Made by a program: the position numbers and the translations under genes. The notes under the pieces were generated by a model. That model made no database searches. It had not been told where the DNA came from and saw nothing but the letters and a program-made list of their open reading frames with translations. Shown here piece after piece: positions 38,571 to 45,845 of a stretch of 64,000 bases of DNA (position 1 is its first letter; every line of letters starts with the position of its first letter). The DNA is taken from assembly GCA_002898215.1 (NCBI GenBank), contig BEIF01000001.1, positions 1,029,602 to 1,093,601 of the forward strand, given 5' to 3'. This DNA is from a bacterium HR29 (GTDB lineage Bacteria > Chloroflexota > Dehalococcoidia > Tepidiformales > Tepidiformaceae).

Positions 38571-38646
38571 GGCAGCTCGTATGTAGCATCCGCCGAAGGA
38601 GCTCCGCAACGGCCGCCGGGTGGCTGCCGATCCCTCACGTTCACGT

Positions 38647-38652
38647 TAGAAT
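38647..38652 (+). promoter_or_regulatory. -10 element of the CoA-transferase gene
   Basis: TAGAAT (five of six consensus positions) lies 42 bases before the ATG; no clear -35 is seen at the normal distance. Confidence 0.35.
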
Positions 38653-38694
38653 GCGGCCACCGTGAGCGCTGAGCAGCGAGGGAGGTGACGTCGC

Positions 38695-39969
38695 ATGCAC
38701 CAGGGTCCGCTGGCCGGAGTGCGGGTGCTGGAGTTCACGCAGATCATCGCCGGTCCGTTCTGCTGCATGCTCCTTTCCGACATGGGGGCGGAGGTCATCA
38801 AGTTCGAGCCGATCGAGGGGGAGCCGTGGCGGCTCTTCGCCGAGCTCGTGCCGAAGGAATCCCGCGCCTTCGTGAGCCTCAACCGCGGGAAGCGGGACGT
38901 CGCCCTGGACATGCGCCGGCCGGAGGCGCGGGAGATCATCCACCGGCTGGTGCCGAGCGCCGACGTCATCGTCATCAACTATCGGCCCGGGGTGGCCGAG
39001 CAGCTCGGCATCGACTACGAGACGGTTCGCTCCATCAACCCGCGCATCATCTACTGCGAGAACACCGCCTTCGGCCGGGCGGGCCCGATGGCCATGCGCG
39101 GCGGGTACGACATCGTCGTCCAGGCGATGACGGGCCTGATGGCCGGCGAGGCGAAGATGCAAGGCGAGGTGCCCACCTTCGTCCATCCCGCCATCGCCGA
39201 CTTCGCCACCGGCATCCAGATGGCGAGCAGCGTGTGCGCAGCGCTCTACTTCCGCGAGCGCACGGGGAAGGGACAGCGCATCGATACCTCCCTGCTCGGG
39301 ACGTCGCTGGCCATCCAGACGTCCCAGTTCACCTGGATCGACGCCTGGGATGCGGAGGTCATCCCCCGGATGCTGGAGGAGCTGGCCCAGGCTCGCGCCG
39401 AGAAGCGCTCCTTCCTCGAGCAGGTGGAGATCCGCCGCCGGTACCGCCCGCTGACCACGGCGAACATCTACTACCGCGTGTACCAGACCGCCGATGGCTT
39501 CATCGCCGTCGGTGCGCTCTCGAACCCCCTGCGGAAGAAGGTCCTCGAAGCGACCGGGCTGAAGGACCCCCGCTTCCGCCCCGACGGCTCGTTCGAGCTG
39601 AACCCGCCGGGCTGGGAGGAGGAGGGCCCGAAACTCGTGGCGGAAGCTGAAGCGCTCTTCCGCTCGAAGACCACCGAGGAGTGGGGCGAGATCTTGGAGC
39701 GGCACGGCGTCCCGAATGGGCCGCTCTACTTCGTCGAGGAGCTCTTCGACCACCCCCAGACGCACGCCAACGGGCTCGTCTGCGAGCTGGAACACCCGAT
39801 CCTAGGCAGGATTCGGATGGTGGGGCCGGCCTTCCAGATGTCGGAGAGCCCGCTCGCGCCCCAAGGAGCGAGCCCTCCCTTGGGTGCCGACACCGACGCG
39901 GTGTTAGCCGAGGCGGGCTATTCCCCCGAGGCGATCGGAGCGCTACGGGAGGCCGGCGTCATCCTCTAA
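38695..39969 (+). CDS. Family III CoA-transferase (CaiB/BaiF type)
   Basis: A 424-residue enzyme that moves CoA between carboxylic acids. The N-terminus PLAGVRVLEFTQIIAGPFC and SDMGAEVIKFEPIEGEPWR are typical, and the catalytic aspartate is in HPAIADFATG (about residue 169). The small domain contains TKTTEEWGEILERHGVPNGP-like sequence near the C-terminus. ATG 38695 follows GGGAGGTGA. Acceptor and donor are not predictable; relatives act on carnitine, formyl/oxalyl, or aromatic acids. Confidence 0.92.
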   Translation: MHQGPLAGVRVLEFTQIIAGPFCCMLLSDMGAEVIKFEPIEGEPWRLFAELVPKESRAFVSLNRGKRDVALDMRRPEAREIIHRLVPSADVIVINYRPGVAEQLGIDYETVRSINPRIIYCENTAFGRAGPMAMRGGYDIVVQAMTGLMAGEAKMQGEVPTFVHPAIADFATGIQMASSVCAALYFRERTGKGQRIDTSLLGTSLAIQTSQFTWIDAWDAEVIPRMLEELAQARAEKRSFLEQVEIRRRYRPLTTANIYYRVYQTADGFIAVGALSNPLRKKVLEATGLKDPRFRPDGSFELNPPGWEEEGPKLVAEAEALFRSKTTEEWGEILERHGVPNGPLYFVEELFDHPQTHANGLVCELEHPILGRIRMVGPAFQMSESPLAPQGASPPLGADTDAVLAEAGYSPEAIGALREAGVIL

Positions 39970-39972
39970 GGG

Positions 39973-41196
39973 CTAGCCGGCGAGGGCTACCTCCGGCACG
40001 CTCCTCAGCGCTGCCCGATGCGCCCGAAGCCAGAGCACGGCCATCGGGAAGGCGAGCAACGCGAGGGCGCCGAGGCCCAACCGGTAGGCGGCGAGCAACC
40101 CGAACTCGTCGGCCACGGCGCCCATCGCCGGCTCGAGTGGAGCGATGAGGAGGCTCATCACGAGCTGACCGAAGGAGAGGATCGTGGCCCGCTGGGCCGA
40201 CGGGATGCGCTCGTTGACGTACGTCGAGACGACCGGCTGCGATAGGCCCCAGAGGAAGGAGAGGAGGGGGTAGAAGGTGAACGCGGCCAAGTGGTCGATC
40301 GAACCGAGGGCCGAGAGGGCGAACGCCGGCAGCAAGGGAAGGAGCAGCACCACCCGGGCCACCCCTAGCGCGGCGGCGAGCCGGTAGGCATTCAGCGCGG
40401 CGACGATGCCGACGACGTGCCCCGGCACGCCGAACCAGCCGAGGTGCTCCACCGATACCCCATGGTGGACGAGGAAGGGCTGAACGAGGATGAAGGTGCT
40501 CACCGCGACCGCCACCGAGCTCCCGGAGAGGAGCAGCAGGTAGCGAACCTCGTGGGCCCGCCAGGCGATGCGGGCGGCTTCCTTGGCGTTCGACAGATAC
40601 CCCAACGGCTCGCCTTCGTGGCGCGGGGGTTCGCGCATGGTGAGGGTGACGAGCCAGGCGAGGAAGATGAACGCCCCGCTGAGGACGATCGGGAACCAGA
40701 GGGTGGTGGCGGCAGCGAGGGGCGCGCCGATGAGCAAGCCGACAACCGAGGCCACGGAATCGACCGCCCAGGCACGCCCGTACAGCTTCTGGTACTCCGC
40801 CTCGCGCCCCATGGCCTTCAGGGAGTCGTAGAGGAAGGCGGCGTCGGCGCCGGAGAAGAGCGTCCAAGCAACCGCCCAGAGGAGGTACGAGGCGAGCACC
40901 AGCCAGTACGTAGCCGCCAGTCCGAACCCGACGATGGTGACGGTGTAGAGCAGTGCCCCAAGACTGAGAGAGACCTTCCGTCCCCAACGGTCGGCGACCG
41001 CCCCCGTGGGAACCTCCAGGAGGACCATCAGCGCCCAGAAAGGGGCATCGAGGGCGGTTACCTGGGTGAGGCTGAACCCCCGCTCGTCGGTAAGGTAGAC
41101 GACCCAAATAGGGAGCCACAGCTGGAAGTGGGTTAGGGCGCGGAACGCGTAGAACTTCCAGACATTGCCGGCATAGGGCGAACCCACTCCCTGCAT
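39973..41196 (-). CDS. MFS transporter
   Basis: A 407-residue major facilitator superfamily protein with twelve predicted helices. The loop 2-3 motif is GAVADRWGRKVSLSLG, and the second-half counterpart is AVADEFG near the C-terminus; the N-terminal helix starts WKFYAFRALTHFQLWLPIWV. The group resembles drug/metabolite exporters of the Bcr/MdtH-like type without a defined substrate. It starts 3 bases after DUF368 ends and is the last gene of the sigma/anti-sigma unit. Confidence 0.88.
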   Translation of the reverse strand: MQGVGSPYAGNVWKFYAFRALTHFQLWLPIWVVYLTDERGFSLTQVTALDAPFWALMVLLEVPTGAVADRWGRKVSLSLGALLYTVTIVGFGLAATYWLVLASYLLWAVAWTLFSGADAAFLYDSLKAMGREAEYQKLYGRAWAVDSVASVVGLLIGAPLAAATTLWFPIVLSGAFIFLAWLVTLTMREPPRHEGEPLGYLSNAKEAARIAWRAHEVRYLLLLSGSSVAVAVSTFILVQPFLVHHGVSVEHLGWFGVPGHVVGIVAALNAYRLAAALGVARVVLLLPLLPAFALSALGSIDHLAAFTFYPLLSFLWGLSQPVVSTYVNERIPSAQRATILSFGQLVMSLLIAPLEPAMGAVADEFGLLAAYRLGLGALALLAFPMAVLWLRAHRAALRSVPEVALAG

Positions 41197-41199
41197 GGC

Positions 41200-42165
41200 C
41201 TACCGTCCTGCGACCGGACGCACCCGCCGGGCCGGGGCGGGAAGCTGCGCCCGAGCGCTCCAGCGGGCGAGGCCAAGGACGAGCAGGGCGCCTCCCAGCG
41301 CCAGCACACCCGCGGCCGGCACGTCGCCCCAGACAGGCGCCCCGAGCGCGGCGCTGTCGGTCCCCTGGGGCCAAGGCCACACCACCCGGAGCGACCCGAG
41401 CATGAGGCCGATCATGGCCGCCAGGACACGGTCGTGCCACCGCTTCAACATCCATTCCAACGCGGGGACGAATGTCGCCAGCCCTGCGGCCACCCCCACG
41501 GCGAAGAGCGCCACGACAGGGAGGTCGCGGTTGTTGAGGGCGCCGAGCATGTACTCGTACATGCCGAGCATGAGGAGCACGAAGGAGCCGGAAATTCCCG
41601 GAAGGATCATCGCACAGATGGCGAGGGCGCCGGAGAGCGGAACGAACCACCAGGCAGGGTCGGAAACCTCTCCCGAGCGCACCCCGAGAGCCAGGAACGA
41701 GGCACCGGCGGAGGCGAGGAGGAGGGCGAGGTCGAGCCCGCCGCGGTCGCGGAGGCGGCTCCAGGCGACACCGATGGACCCAGCGACCAGCCCGAAGAAG
41801 AGGGCCGCCAGCTCGACCGGGTACCGGTCGAGCGCGGCTTCGATCACGTGGGCGAGGGTGAGGAAGGCGGTGGCGATGCCCGCGACGAGCGGGAGCGTGA
41901 ACCGCCACGGCGCGCGCCGGAACTCGCGGGCCGCCCGTCGACCGTCGAGACGGGCGACGGCGACCCCGATCGCAACGAAGCGGCGAATCGCGGCGACCAG
42001 GGGCTCGTAGATGCCGAGGGCGAGGGCGACCGTCGCCCCGGAAACGCCCGGCACGACGTCGGCGCAGCCCATGGCGAAGCCGCGGAGAAACTGCGCCGCG
42101 ATGCCCAGCACGGGCTCAGGGTACCGGCTTGTCCCCTTCCGCGCAGGCCCAGCGTCGGCGGTCAT
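41200..42165 (-). CDS. DUF368 membrane protein, undecaprenyl-phosphate translocase (PopT) family
   Basis: A 321-residue polytopic protein with the DUF368 signature RGFAMGCADVVPGVSGATVALALGIYE, read here in two parts, near residues 28-54. A second related half appears later with AICAMILPGISGSFVLLMLGMYE-like sequence, giving the internal duplication expected of the family. DUF368 proteins have been shown to recycle undecaprenyl phosphate across the membrane for cell-wall synthesis. It overlaps the anti-sigma gene by 4 bases, suggesting that the ECF sigma factor controls lipid-carrier recycling. Confidence 0.88.
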   Translation of the reverse strand: MTADAGPARKGTSRYPEPVLGIAAQFLRGFAMGCADVVPGVSGATVALALGIYEPLVAAIRRFVAIGVAVARLDGRRAAREFRRAPWRFTLPLVAGIATAFLTLAHVIEAALDRYPVELAALFFGLVAGSIGVAWSRLRDRGGLDLALLLASAGASFLALGVRSGEVSDPAWWFVPLSGALAICAMILPGISGSFVLLMLGMYEYMLGALNNRDLPVVALFAVGVAAGLATFVPALEWMLKRWHDRVLAAMIGLMLGSLRVVWPWPQGTDSAALGAPVWGDVPAAGVLALGGALLVLGLARWSARAQLPAPARRVRPVAGR

Positions 42166-42818
42166 TCGCCGATGGTGACGAAGATGAGCGGTGCCGACGT
42201 AGGCCAGGCCGACCCCGCTGCGCCCTCGACGGTGATGCAGAGGCGGTCACCAGGATGGAACGAGCGCGGCAGCACGAATTTCCACCGCCCCTGAGGGTCC
42301 GGGAGGAACGTGGTCAGCGGGACCCAGGCATCGCCCTGCACGAGCCAGAGCTGGTAGGCCATGCCGGGAGGGGGAGGCTCCAGCCCCGCCACACTCACCG
42401 AGACGGAATCCCGGCCACCACGGATCGTGACGGAGACGCCCCTCGTCTGGTCGGTGGCGGTGCCGAGGAGCGGTTCGGGCCGCTCCTCGGCGAGGCTGCG
42501 CCACGCTACCGCGAGGCCGGTCGTCACGAGGAGGAGGATGGCCGCCGCCGCCGCCCACAGCGCCCGCCGCCGGGGGAGCGCCCTCCGCGCCGGTAGCTGC
42601 GCAGCGGTAGCGGCGAGCACGCGCTCTCGAAGCTCCGGGCGAGGCGGGACCGGCTCGGGCTCGAAGGCGAGGGCAGCGGCAGCCAGCGCGAGTTCGCGAA
42701 GCTGCGGGTGCCGAGGGCATTCGGCGAGGTGCCGCCGCAGCACGCTAGCAAGGTCTCCGGAGAGGGTGCCGAGCGCGAGCTCTTCGAGCGCGAGTTCGAC
42801 CTCGCTGCAGTCGGTCAT
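42162..42818 (-). CDS. Anti-sigma factor with zinc-finger-like N-terminus and RskA-type C-terminus
   Basis: A 218-residue single-pass membrane protein. The cytoplasmic N-terminus has an HX3C motif in RRHLAECPRHPQL in which the usual final cysteine is histidine. A membrane helix (ALWAAAAAILLLVTTGLAVAW) follows at about residues 86-106. The extracytoplasmic domain ends with RskA-like MAYQLWLVQGDAWVPL. It would hold the adjacent sigma factor until a signal releases it. It overlaps the sigma gene by 4 bases. Confidence 0.86.
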   Translation of the reverse strand: MTDCSEVELALEELALGTLSGDLASVLRRHLAECPRHPQLRELALAAAALAFEPEPVPPRPELRERVLAATAAQLPARRALPRRRALWAAAAAILLLVTTGLAVAWRSLAEERPEPLLGTATDQTRGVSVTIRGGRDSVSVSVAGLEPPPPGMAYQLWLVQGDAWVPLTTFLPDPQGRWKFVLPRSFHPGDRLCITVEGAAGSAWPTSAPLIFVTIGE

Positions 42819-43384
42819 CGTTCCACCTCGACCCCGAGCGCCGCGCGGACCTTCGCCAGAGCGAGCCGCAGGCGGCTGCGGACGGTGCCTTCGGGGATGT
42901 GGAGTGCCTCCGCGATCTCGCGAGCAGCGAAGCCCCGGAAGTAGGCGAGCTCGAGCGCGACCCGCTGGTCGGCAGGGAGGTCGCGCACCGCGCGGCGGAC
43001 CGCTTCGTGGAGGTCGGAGGCGTCGATGCGGGCGAGCTCGACGAGGGCCGATTCGTCGACCGGCTCGGCAGCGAGGGAGGCGCGGCCGTTCCGCCGACTG
43101 CGGGCAGCATCGACGGCGCGGCGGTGAACGATGGTGAGGAGGAGCGCTTCGGGGGCACCCCGGGCAGCATCGAAGCGGTCGATGTGCTCCCAGAGCCAGA
43201 GAAAGGCATCGTGCACGGCGTCAGCTGCAGCGTGCTCGTCGCGGAGGATGCGCAGGGCCAAGCCGTACGCCCTCGCGGCGCAGGCGTCGTACAGGGCTGC
43301 GAGCGCGCGCGGGTCGCGGGCAACGAGAGCGGCGACGAAGGCGTCGCGGCCGGGGAAGGAGCCGTCGAGGCCCGAAGCGGTCAC
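42815..43384 (-). CDS. ECF-type RNA polymerase sigma factor
   Basis: A 189-residue two-domain sigma factor. Region 2 has ALAALYDACAARAYGLALRI and DAVHDAFLWLWEH, and region 4 has LPADQRVALELAYFRGF then AAREIAEALHIPEGTVRSRL. The length and RskA-like partner suggest the SigK/ECF19 group. GTG 43384 follows a -10 element so closely that the mRNA would be almost leaderless. It heads the minus-strand unit sigma, anti-sigma, DUF368, MFS. Confidence 0.92.
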   Translation of the reverse strand: MTASGLDGSFPGRDAFVAALVARDPRALAALYDACAARAYGLALRILRDEHAAADAVHDAFLWLWEHIDRFDAARGAPEALLLTIVHRRAVDAARSRRNGRASLAAEPVDESALVELARIDASDLHEAVRRAVRDLPADQRVALELAYFRGFAAREIAEALHIPEGTVRSRLRLALAKVRAALGVEVER

Positions 43385-43393
43385 GGCGGCGCC

Positions 43394-43399
43394 ATTGTA
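43394..43399 (-). promoter_or_regulatory. -10 element before the ECF sigma gene
   Basis: On the minus strand TACAAT lies nine bases before the GTG start. Transcription would begin two or three bases before the start codon. A -35 for the housekeeping sigma is not evident, so an ECF-type -35 upstream is possible. Confidence 0.4.
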
Positions 43400-43443
43400 C
43401 CCCCGCGTGCGGAGGCTGCCATCACTTCGCGTTGCACGAAGCT

Positions 43444-43836
43444 TTACGGGGACGGCGGCTGGGCCGAGGGTTCAGCTTCCGAGGCACGCGCTTGACAGAT
43501 GGCACGCAAGGCCTCGTACAGCTCGCGGCCATCCACCGACATCGGGACGTAGGCGGCGGCGCCTGCCCCCAGGTACGCATCCCGGTCGCTCGGCCGGGGA
43601 ATGGGGCAGAGAATGACCACGTGAATTCCCCTGGCGGCGAGCGCCCGGCACTCCTCCGCCCCCACCACCGATGGCGTGGCGACCACGATCGCCCCCGCGG
43701 GTGCCTCGTCGAGGGGCTGGTCGAGGGGCCGGAAATCCCAGTCGGCCATGCGGGCGAGCTGTGCGCGGAGCGCTCGGTAGAGCGCGCGGTCGCCGAGGGC
43801 GAGCCATAGCGGCCCCGGAGGCTGCAGCCTCGGCAT
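43444..43836 (-). CDS. Degenerate receiver-domain-like protein
   Basis: A 130-residue protein resembling a response-regulator receiver: LWLALGDRALYRALRAQLA as beta1/alpha1, AGAIVVATPSV where the phospho-acceptor aspartate should be, and YLGAGAAAYVPMSVDGRELYEAL as the beta5/alpha5 end with Met in place of the conserved Lys. With both the Asp and Lys missing it should not be phosphorylated normally. ATG 43836 follows AGGGGA. It is divergent from the GAF histidine kinase and may modulate it, an inference from position. Confidence 0.62.
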   Translation of the reverse strand: MPRLQPPGPLWLALGDRALYRALRAQLARMADWDFRPLDQPLDEAPAGAIVVATPSVVGAEECRALAARGIHVVILCPIPRPSDRDAYLGAGAAAYVPMSVDGRELYEALRAICQARASEAEPSAQPPSP

Positions 43837-44004
43837 GGTTCGATCCCCTGAAACTGCTCTGGCTGGCGTGGGAACGATCATTTCCGATCAGGGTGGCAGA
43901 CGGTAAGCGTTCGTCGAAAGGACCGAACGGGGAAACGCGCGCGGGCCGTTCGGTACTGTGCAACCGCCGCGGAAAAGGCACGTTTCCGATCTCGTGAACA
44001 GCGT

Positions 44005-44010
44005 TACAAT
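44005..44010 (+). promoter_or_regulatory. -10 element giving a leaderless histidine kinase mRNA
   Basis: TACAAT (five of six consensus) is followed by seven bases and then the ATG at 44018, so the transcript should begin at or next to the start codon. The -35 is weak (TTTCCG). Confidence 0.5.
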
Positions 44011-44017
44011 GTCGGCG

Positions 44018-45187
44018 ATGAGCGATATGGCAGCGGGCGTTGCTCCCGAGTTCGCCCTTCGCCTCGCCGAGATGGCGGTGACGAGCGAGGCGCTGGTCTC
44101 GGCCGAGAGCCTGAACGACATCCTCCATCGCCTCGCCGCTCGAGCCCACGAGGTTACGCGGGCCGATTACGCGGCGATCTCGATCTTCGACGAGGAGGGC
44201 CATGTAACCCGGTTCGTGTACACCGGCATCGACGAAGCGCTGGCTCGGCGGCTCGGCAACCCGCCCGTGGGGCGCGGGCTGCTTGGAGAGCTGCGCCGGC
44301 ACGATCGCCCCCTGCGGCTCGACAACCTGAAGCGGCATCCGCGCTTCACCGGGTGGCCTGAGGGGCACCCCGATATGGAAGCGTTCCTGGGTGTGCCCAT
44401 CCGCGCCGGAGGCGAGACCATCGGGTCGCTGTACATGACCCGCGTGGCCGGCCGGGAGCCGTTCACGGAGCGGGACGAGCTGGCAGCGGCGGTGCTCGCC
44501 CTCCAGGCGGCGGCAACGGTCGCGTCGGCGTTGGCACGAGAGCGGACTGGGCGGGTGGCGATCCTGGAAGAGCGGGAGCGCATCGCCCACGACCTCCACG
44601 ACGGGATCATCCAATCCCTCTACGCCATCGGGCTGGAGTTCGACACCCTCACCCGCCGCGATGACCTCCCCGACGACGCCCGGGAGCTGCTCCGCGAGGA
44701 GGTCGAACGCATCAACTCCATCATCCAGGACATCCGCGAATACATCAGCATGCTCGAAGCGGGGTCGCCGCCGAGCGCTCCCGATCTCTCCCGCGACCTC
44801 GCCTTCGTGCTGCGGCAGCTCGTGCCCCCGGGCATCGACACCGTGCTGAACGTGACCGCCGCTGCCCTACAGGAGCTGAACAACCGCGAAGCGGAGGACG
44901 TCCTGTACATCGCCCGCGAAGCGGTGAGCAACGCCGTGCGCCACGGGAGCCCCACGAAGATCGGGGTCGACCTTCGTCAGACGGACTCGGAGCTGACGCT
45001 CACGGTGCAGGACAACGGGGTAGGGTTCGACCCGGCGAAGGCGCCCACAGGGCTTGGTACGATTACGATGCGCACGCGGGCCGCACGGCTGGGAGCGAAG
45101 TTGACGATCCTGGGAATACCGGGCATGGGCACCACCGTCCATCTGTCCATCCCGCGGAGGAGCTATGAGCGAGGCGAAGGCGAATGA
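44018..45187 (+). CDS. GAF-domain sensor histidine kinase (NarL/DevS type)
   Basis: A 389-residue cytoplasmic sensor kinase with no membrane segment. A GAF domain spans about residues 25-175 (YAAISIFDEEGHVTRFVY; MEAFLGVPIRAGGETIGSLY). The HisKA_3 dimerisation box ERERIAHDLHDGIIQSLYAIG holds the phospho-acceptor His191. The HATPase has AREAVSNAVRHG, DNGVGFD and GLGTITMRTRA. The layout matches DevS/DosS-like kinases with one GAF instead of two; the ligand is unknown. ATG 44018 is chosen over upstream in-frame starts because of the adjacent -10. It overlaps its regulator gene by 23 bases. Confidence 0.9.
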   Translation: MSDMAAGVAPEFALRLAEMAVTSEALVSAESLNDILHRLAARAHEVTRADYAAISIFDEEGHVTRFVYTGIDEALARRLGNPPVGRGLLGELRRHDRPLRLDNLKRHPRFTGWPEGHPDMEAFLGVPIRAGGETIGSLYMTRVAGREPFTERDELAAAVLALQAAATVASALARERTGRVAILEERERIAHDLHDGIIQSLYAIGLEFDTLTRRDDLPDDARELLREEVERINSIIQDIREYISMLEAGSPPSAPDLSRDLAFVLRQLVPPGIDTVLNVTAAALQELNNREAEDVLYIAREAVSNAVRHGSPTKIGVDLRQTDSELTLTVQDNGVGFDPAKAPTGLGTITMRTRAARLGAKLTILGIPGMGTTVHLSIPRRSYERGEGE

Positions 45188-45845
45188 CGTCATCCACGTG
45201 CTGCTTGTCGACGACCACGAGGTGGTCCGAGCCGGGCTGAAGGCGCTGCTCCGCGGGAACCCGGAGTTCTCGGTGGTGGGCGAGGCAGGCACCGGCGAGG
45301 CCGCCGTCCGCGAGGCGCTGCGCACGAAGCCTGACCTGGTGGTGATGGACGTGCGCATGGCCGACATGAGCGGTATCGAGGCCTGTCGCGAAATCCGCTC
45401 CCACCTGCCCCAAACGAACGTCCTGATGATCACCTCGTACAGCGACGACCGGGCAGTGATGGCCGCCCTCCTGGCGGGCGCCGGTGGGTTCATGCTGAAG
45501 GACGTCCGTTCCGCCGACCTCGTCGAGGCGATGCGCGTCGTGGGGCGAGGCGGGAAGATCCTCGACGCCGCCAGCTCGGCAGCCGTCATCGAGCAGCTCC
45601 GCCGGGGGACCTTCCTCTCCGAGGAGGAGAAGCTGGCTCGCCAGCTCTCCGAGCGGGAGCTGCAGATCATCGACTTGATCGCCGAGGGGCTGACGAACCG
45701 GGAGATCGGCGAGCGGCTCTACCTTTCGGAGAAGACGGTGAAGCACCACATCAGCGAAATCCTCGCCAAACTCGGCTTCACCCGACGCTCCGAGATCGCG
45801 GCCTTCGCCGCCCGGCTCGCCGCCCAAAAGCAGCGGCAGGATTAG
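45165..45845 (+). CDS. NarL/LuxR-family response regulator
   Basis: A 226-residue regulator. The receiver has VLLVDDHEVVRAG, phospho-acceptor Asp62 in VVMDVRMADMSG, and FMLKDVRSADL. The C-terminal LuxR helix-turn-helix is LSERELQIIDLIAEGLTNRE and following residues to SEKTVKHHISEIL. It is the partner of the overlapping GAF kinase and resembles DevR-type regulators. ATG 45165 follows GGAGGAGC. Confidence 0.94.
   Translation: MSEAKANDVIHVLLVDDHEVVRAGLKALLRGNPEFSVVGEAGTGEAAVREALRTKPDLVVMDVRMADMSGIEACREIRSHLPQTNVLMITSYSDDRAVMAALLAGAGGFMLKDVRSADLVEAMRVVGRGGKILDAASSAAVIEQLRRGTFLSEEEKLARQLSERELQIIDLIAEGLTNREIGERLYLSEKTVKHHISEILAKLGFTRRSEIAAFAARLAAQKQRQD

Follow-up and report, generated by a model that had tools for sequence, protein, structure and literature searches.

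An ECF sigma/RskA-like anti-sigma operon with DUF368 and MFS transporter genes in a Chloroflexota genome: ordinary parts in an unusual combination

The window analyzed in this work is a 64,000-nucleotide stretch (G000:C1:1029602-1093601) of a 2.34 Mb genome in 4 contigs. Its minus strand carries a head-to-tail series of four open frames, which encode, in this order, an ECF sigma factor, an RskA-like anti-sigma factor, a DUF368 protein and an MFS transporter (Table 1). The sigma/anti-sigma and anti-sigma/DUF368 junctions are both ATGA overlaps of 4 bases and the DUF368 and MFS genes are 3 bases apart, as expected from the initial annotation, which had described genes overlapping or abutting on one strand; the sigma gene start (43384) also falls within the interval it had delimited, which ended at 43399. 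Downstream, the stop codon of a convergent CoA-transferase gene lies 3 bases from that of the MFS gene, and the four-gene run therefore ends there. Upstream, 59 bases separate the sigma gene from a gene of 145 aa in the same orientation. The operon is thus real and its parts are ordinary, whereas their combination is unusual and its conservation is absent where we tested for it.

Table 1. Location of the genes and sites discussed in the text, numbered from the first position of the window
Feature	Position	Strand	Details
CoA-transferase family III	38695..39969	+	CoA_transf_3 345 bits; convergent, downstream boundary
MFS transporter	39973..41196	-	407 aa; MFS_1
DUF368 / VCA0040-like predicted undecaprenyl-phosphate translocase	41200..42165	-	321 aa; PF04018
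RskA-like membrane anti-sigma factor	42162..42818	-	218 aa; RskA_C + zf-HC2
ECF sigma factor, SigK-like	42815..43384	-	189 aa, GTG start; Sigma70_r2 + Sigma70_r4_2
Sigma-70-like promoter ATGGCA-17-TACAAT	43394..43422	-	in the 59-base gap; ends 9 bases before the sigma GTG start
Degenerate receiver-like gene	43444..43881	-	145 aa; no Pfam match; upstream of the operon
Inverted repeat, possible operator	43919..43957		12-nt arms, 92% complementary, 15 nt apart
GAF-HisKA_3 kinase	43958..45187	+	divergent from the receiver-like gene
LuxR-type regulator	45165..45845	+	

The four family assignments of the initial annotation were confirmed, each by a score above the curated Pfam cut-off. The sigma factor matches Sigma70_r2 (55.3 bits) and Sigma70_r4_2 (52.9 bits) and, according to Pfam, has neither region 1.2 nor region 3, the composition that defines the ECF class. 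The anti-sigma factor matches RskA_C (58.5 bits) and zf-HC2 (23.7 bits), and hydropathy analysis places a single transmembrane stretch at residues 85-110; an RskA_C domain plus a transmembrane helix makes it a membrane-bound class I RskA-like protein. The pair resembles SigK-RskA of Mycobacterium tuberculosis in that the closest solved relative of the sigma factor is SigK (4nqw_A, 85.8 bits in a PDB sequence search) and in the RskA_C domain of its partner, for which the same type of search gave no match at the limits set. However, the sigma factor reaches 129.6 bits with the NCBIfam SigK subfamily model (NF007228), below the cut-off of 226. Furthermore, RskA is reported to be independent of a zinc motif (PMC7406223), whereas C4, H30, C34 and H37 of the window anti-sigma factor form a putative zinc site whose ligands are invariant in our alignment (A2).

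This putative site, in a protein that scores above the zf-HC2 cut-off, reads Hx3Cx2H, the zinc-binding class I motif Hx3Cx2C being absent. The variant, together with an invariant N-terminal Cys, is common to the anti-sigma factors of the window and of two related genomes, G006 and G018. These are the only three carriers among 24 distinct family-level loci, 16 of which have Hx3Cx2C and five no motif that could be read, some of the latter with an overextended frame. Across 29 further loci of the phylum, Hx3Cx2H was found in six, Hx3Cx2C in 21 and neither in two, so that the variant recurs in Chloroflexota RskA-like anti-sigma factors (L211, L214, L220, L224, L225, L229, G006, G018 and the window).

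The sigma tree, built with 32 rows (the best match per genome plus three further copies), groups the window sigma factor with those of G018 and G006 (support 100/98), separate from an 18-row clade of the commoner ECF factor of the family, to which a second copy in the window genome belongs. A profile made from the three anti-sigma factors matched 175 of 400 phylum genomes at E 1e-6. At the 29 non-window phylum loci that we read, an ECF gene was adjacent to or overlapping the anti-sigma gene in 28, while DUF368 and the window-type MFS gene were found at none (0/29 each). The sigma/anti-sigma pair is therefore a common module, and its DUF368/MFS cargo is met in the window genome only. The genes that follow ten related pairs are miscellaneous, namely PHP (3), glycosyl transferase 2, PIG-L, CAP, DUF427 and acetyltransferase genes, with two giving no match, and in G006 the pair is followed by a convergent gene. 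On the other side, a P450-like gene precedes the pair in G006 and G018 (identified by Pfam in the G006 copy and by translation in G018). In both species of genus g7 a conserved cytochrome P450-like gene (L096 7311-8549, L097 4524-5762; confirmed by Pfam for the L096 copy) stands before the orthologous pair and may be a partner of the pair in that genus.

The DUF368 protein belongs clearly to PF04018 (VCA0040-like; 231.1 bits against a gathering score of 26) and its nearest named relatives are from Chloroflexota. A 32-row alignment contains 31 invariant columns, including two PG-SG motifs; in a 47-row alignment the window protein retains the conserved motifs with one substitution, PGVSGAT in place of PGVSGGT. 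AlphaFold, given 32 sequences, predicted a confident, all-helical model (mean pLDDT 86.8). Neither a PDB sequence search at the limits set nor Foldseek with this model at E 0.001 returned a match, and the best VIA-align result (Z 7.4) may reflect just a shared helical arrangement. In PMC9876793, DUF368 proteins are presented as C55-P translocase candidates, loss of which leads to alkaline-dependent wall defects. The tie between DUF368 and undecaprenyl phosphate drawn in the initial annotation holds. The window protein resembles these translocases (VCA0040, PopT) in its PF04018 score and its PG-SG motifs, but differs from them in falling below the NCBIfam equivalog cut-offs (218.6 and 104.1 bits against 400) and in being encoded within an ECF operon.

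This last arrangement was not found again. Among 41 related genomes (21 of them with a completeness of 90% or more and a contamination of 5% or less, and none a second member of the window genus), PF04018 was present in two, the window genome and G005. The G005 copy is about 53% identical to that of the window and is encoded beside an orthologous CoA-transferase gene, 9 bases behind a DUF3179 gene; no ECF, anti-sigma or window-type MFS neighbour was detected in the 20-kb stretch read. PF04018 scored above the cut-off in 39 of 400 phylum genomes, two matches below it (G369, G161) being left out of the neighbourhood reading. We read 59 other DUF368 loci, among which a species may be represented more than once: 38 from other phylum genomes, that of G005, 16 from named genomes (L003-L018) and four from plasmids, seven of the total lying outside Chloroflexota (L016-L018, L191-L194). 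An ECF or RskA-like gene was detected beside DUF368 at none of the 59, 56 of which have testable upstream DNA (L208, L209 and L196 have less than 200 bases), using profiles built from family members; these profiles matched where expected, a weak control because many such loci or near relatives had been used in building them. Conversely, the genomes with the nearest sigma/anti-sigma pairs (G006, G018) lack DUF368, and G005 has DUF368 but lacks a window-type pair. Since DUF368 and an ECF/anti-sigma pair are neighbours in no other genome examined, the four-gene set is a lineage-specific assembly, seen in the window genome alone among those examined, and we rejected a conserved DUF368-ECF neighbourhood, which the initial annotation had named as a check. 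Uniqueness to this genome, which is what we found, is one of the two observations, along with a lack of co-expression, that it had named as contrary to its proposal.

Two looser associations were also set aside. On a Halomonas plasmid (L193) a sigma gene is found some 1.2 kb away from DUF368, but its product, with regions 1.2, 2, 3 and 4, falls outside the ECF class. In G005, some 2.2 kb separate a homologue (44%) of the window MFS protein from a different ECF gene, one with a DUF5667-bearing partner; this was judged unrelated. Our literature search, with subscription journals mostly outside its coverage, found no paper combining DUF368 with 'ECF sigma'; wider results were SigM and general papers, none of whose titles or opening abstract lines pointed to such an operon.

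The sequences around the operon bear on how it may be transcribed. A scan for the sigma-70 consensus found a single promoter-like site in 38600-44200, against 0.2 expected from shuffled sequences; with 9 bases between the end of its second hexamer and the GTG, a transcript from it would have almost no leader. The scan was confined to sigma-70 consensus sites, so that an ECF promoter may be present as well. Comparison by eye of the DNA upstream of the window pair with that upstream of the G006 and G018 pairs revealed no shared motif. Because the sole promoter-like site found is of the sigma-70 type, control of DUF368 by the sigma factor is something that we infer from gene order. The 145-aa gene beyond this site seems, from its sequence, to encode a receiver domain lacking the usual phosphoacceptor, and has homologues in 13 of 25 genomes, the window genome included. 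At 11 loci read in relatives, a kinase homologue was adjacent in eight and a sigma homologue in none; we thus rejected this gene as a member of the sigma operon and assigned it to the kinase/regulator block, and its recurrence beside the kinase suggests that its product is an accessory to the GAF-HisKA_3/LuxR two-component system. The inverted repeat in the gap where the receiver-like and kinase genes diverge is a possible operator. On the downstream side, CoA-transferase orthologues (66% identity or more) occur in 17 other family genomes and adjoin DUF368 only in G005, as read in flanking sequence that extended to 1.5 kb at most and less at contig ends. Both the receiver-like/kinase/regulator block and the CoA transferase are therefore found without the operon that lies between them here.

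These observations could also describe a neutral, lineage-specific neighbourhood, in which DUF368 and MFS genes came to lie behind the pair under a housekeeping promoter while the real targets of the sigma factor are elsewhere. The sigma-70-like site and the position between two blocks that exist without the operon speak for it, as do the discordant distributions of the sigma clade, DUF368 and MFS in the 41 relatives. On the other hand, the start and stop codons that overlap at two of the junctions imply that translation is coupled, and autoregulation of the operon is frequent among ECF factors. We regard this explanation as a serious possibility, appreciably short of an even chance.

The MFS protein gives little indication of its substrate. 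It matches MFS_1 (64.9 bits), reaches no NCBIfam cut-off and gave no match in a PDB sequence search at the limits set. The initial annotation had suggested that it could be an exporter of an antibiotic whose target is the lipid carrier, and there is indeed weak similarity to the TetA(P) and MdtH models. However, the best resistance model (tet_MFS_P_a) scores 52.2 bits against a cut-off of 750, and the protein is far below every resistance-family cut-off; homologues are widespread in the family (32 of the 41 genomes searched), and none of the seven whose neighbourhoods were read adjoins window-type operon genes. Besides, no biosynthetic gene was recognized by Pfam among the assigned genes directly flanking the operon. 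The antibiotic-export proposal is thus very improbable.

The window genome encodes, in addition to DUF368, MraY (233 bits), BacA (279.5 bits) and one DedA protein (94.7 bits), so that recycling of undecaprenyl phosphate makes sense there. Tepidiforma, of the Dehalococcoidia, is reported to keep peptidoglycan (PMC10284905); on grounds that include a patchy distribution of MraY, the window lineage is presumably a member of the class that does so too. As for DedA, the two DUF368 genomes, G000 and G005 (the latter 81% complete), have one copy each, whereas of 14 other family genomes searched 12 carry at least two, one carries a single copy and one carries none; possibly, one of these two translocase families stands in for the other.

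A precedent for linking an ECF factor to the carrier lipid exists in Bacillus subtilis. According to PMC11081497, the system formed by SigM and its anti-sigma complex in the membrane is responsive to the level of undecaprenyl phosphate and has bcrC and uptA under its control; the authors consider the pathway confined to close relatives and analogous pathways elsewhere to await discovery. The two systems are alike in joining an ECF sigma factor and a membrane anti-sigma factor in one operon and in a tie to undecaprenyl-phosphate supply. They differ in that bcrC and uptA are described as regulon members and are not named within sigM-yhdL-yhdK, whereas the window DUF368 gene is part of the operon, and in their flippases, UptA of the DedA family in Bacillus and, as predicted, a DUF368 protein here.

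Reasoning from SigM, we tentatively favor, at just under an even chance, a self-contained ECF-controlled envelope-stress operon that would raise lipid-carrier recycling. The RskA-like protein would hold the sigma factor at the membrane, and a signal from the envelope, perceived by its outer domain, would lead to sigma release; the freed sigma factor would then have its own operon transcribed at a higher level, with other promoters probably activated too. More DUF368 protein would return undecaprenyl phosphate to the inner leaflet, and the co-expressed MFS protein would move or export a solute. The overlapping and abutting frames, the family matches, the recurrent sigma/anti-sigma pairing, the carrier genes and the SigM precedent argue for this; against it stand the confinement of the DUF368-pair association to one genome among those examined, the sigma-70 type of the only promoter-like site found, the lack, by eye, of an upstream motif shared with the G006 and G018 pairs, and the assorted genes beside related pairs. 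The envelope-stress circuit of the initial annotation is accordingly plausible given the ECF/RskA-like pair, the full carrier cycle and SigM, while neighbourhood conservation, on both the DUF368 side (0/59) and the anti-sigma side (0/29), was negative.

The DUF368 protein might, in addition to being an output, serve as a co-sensor, a polytopic protein contacting the anti-sigma factor to report carrier-lipid status as YhdK does with YhdL for SigM. According to PMC11081497, the sigM-yhdL-yhdK operon also combines one sigma gene with genes for two membrane proteins, is controlled without regulated proteolysis and has undecaprenyl phosphate as its proposed signal; related anti-sigma factors, however, work in genomes and loci without a DUF368 neighbour, and we consider such a role unlikely. 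Slightly less likely still is the most far-reaching version, an independent carrier-lipid homeostasis switch outside Bacillus, with the flippase inside the sigma/anti-sigma operon and DUF368 both restoring inner-leaflet undecaprenyl phosphate and reporting its level to the anti-sigma factor.

The value of these observations is limited by their origin in one genome, of a probably uncultured or little-studied Chloroflexota lineage, and their interest is modest. Nevertheless, the unusual combination makes a specific hypothesis of carrier-lipid control testable, and with its DUF368 gene in translational coupling to an ECF/anti-sigma pair, the operon is a concrete candidate for an analogous carrier-lipid pathway.
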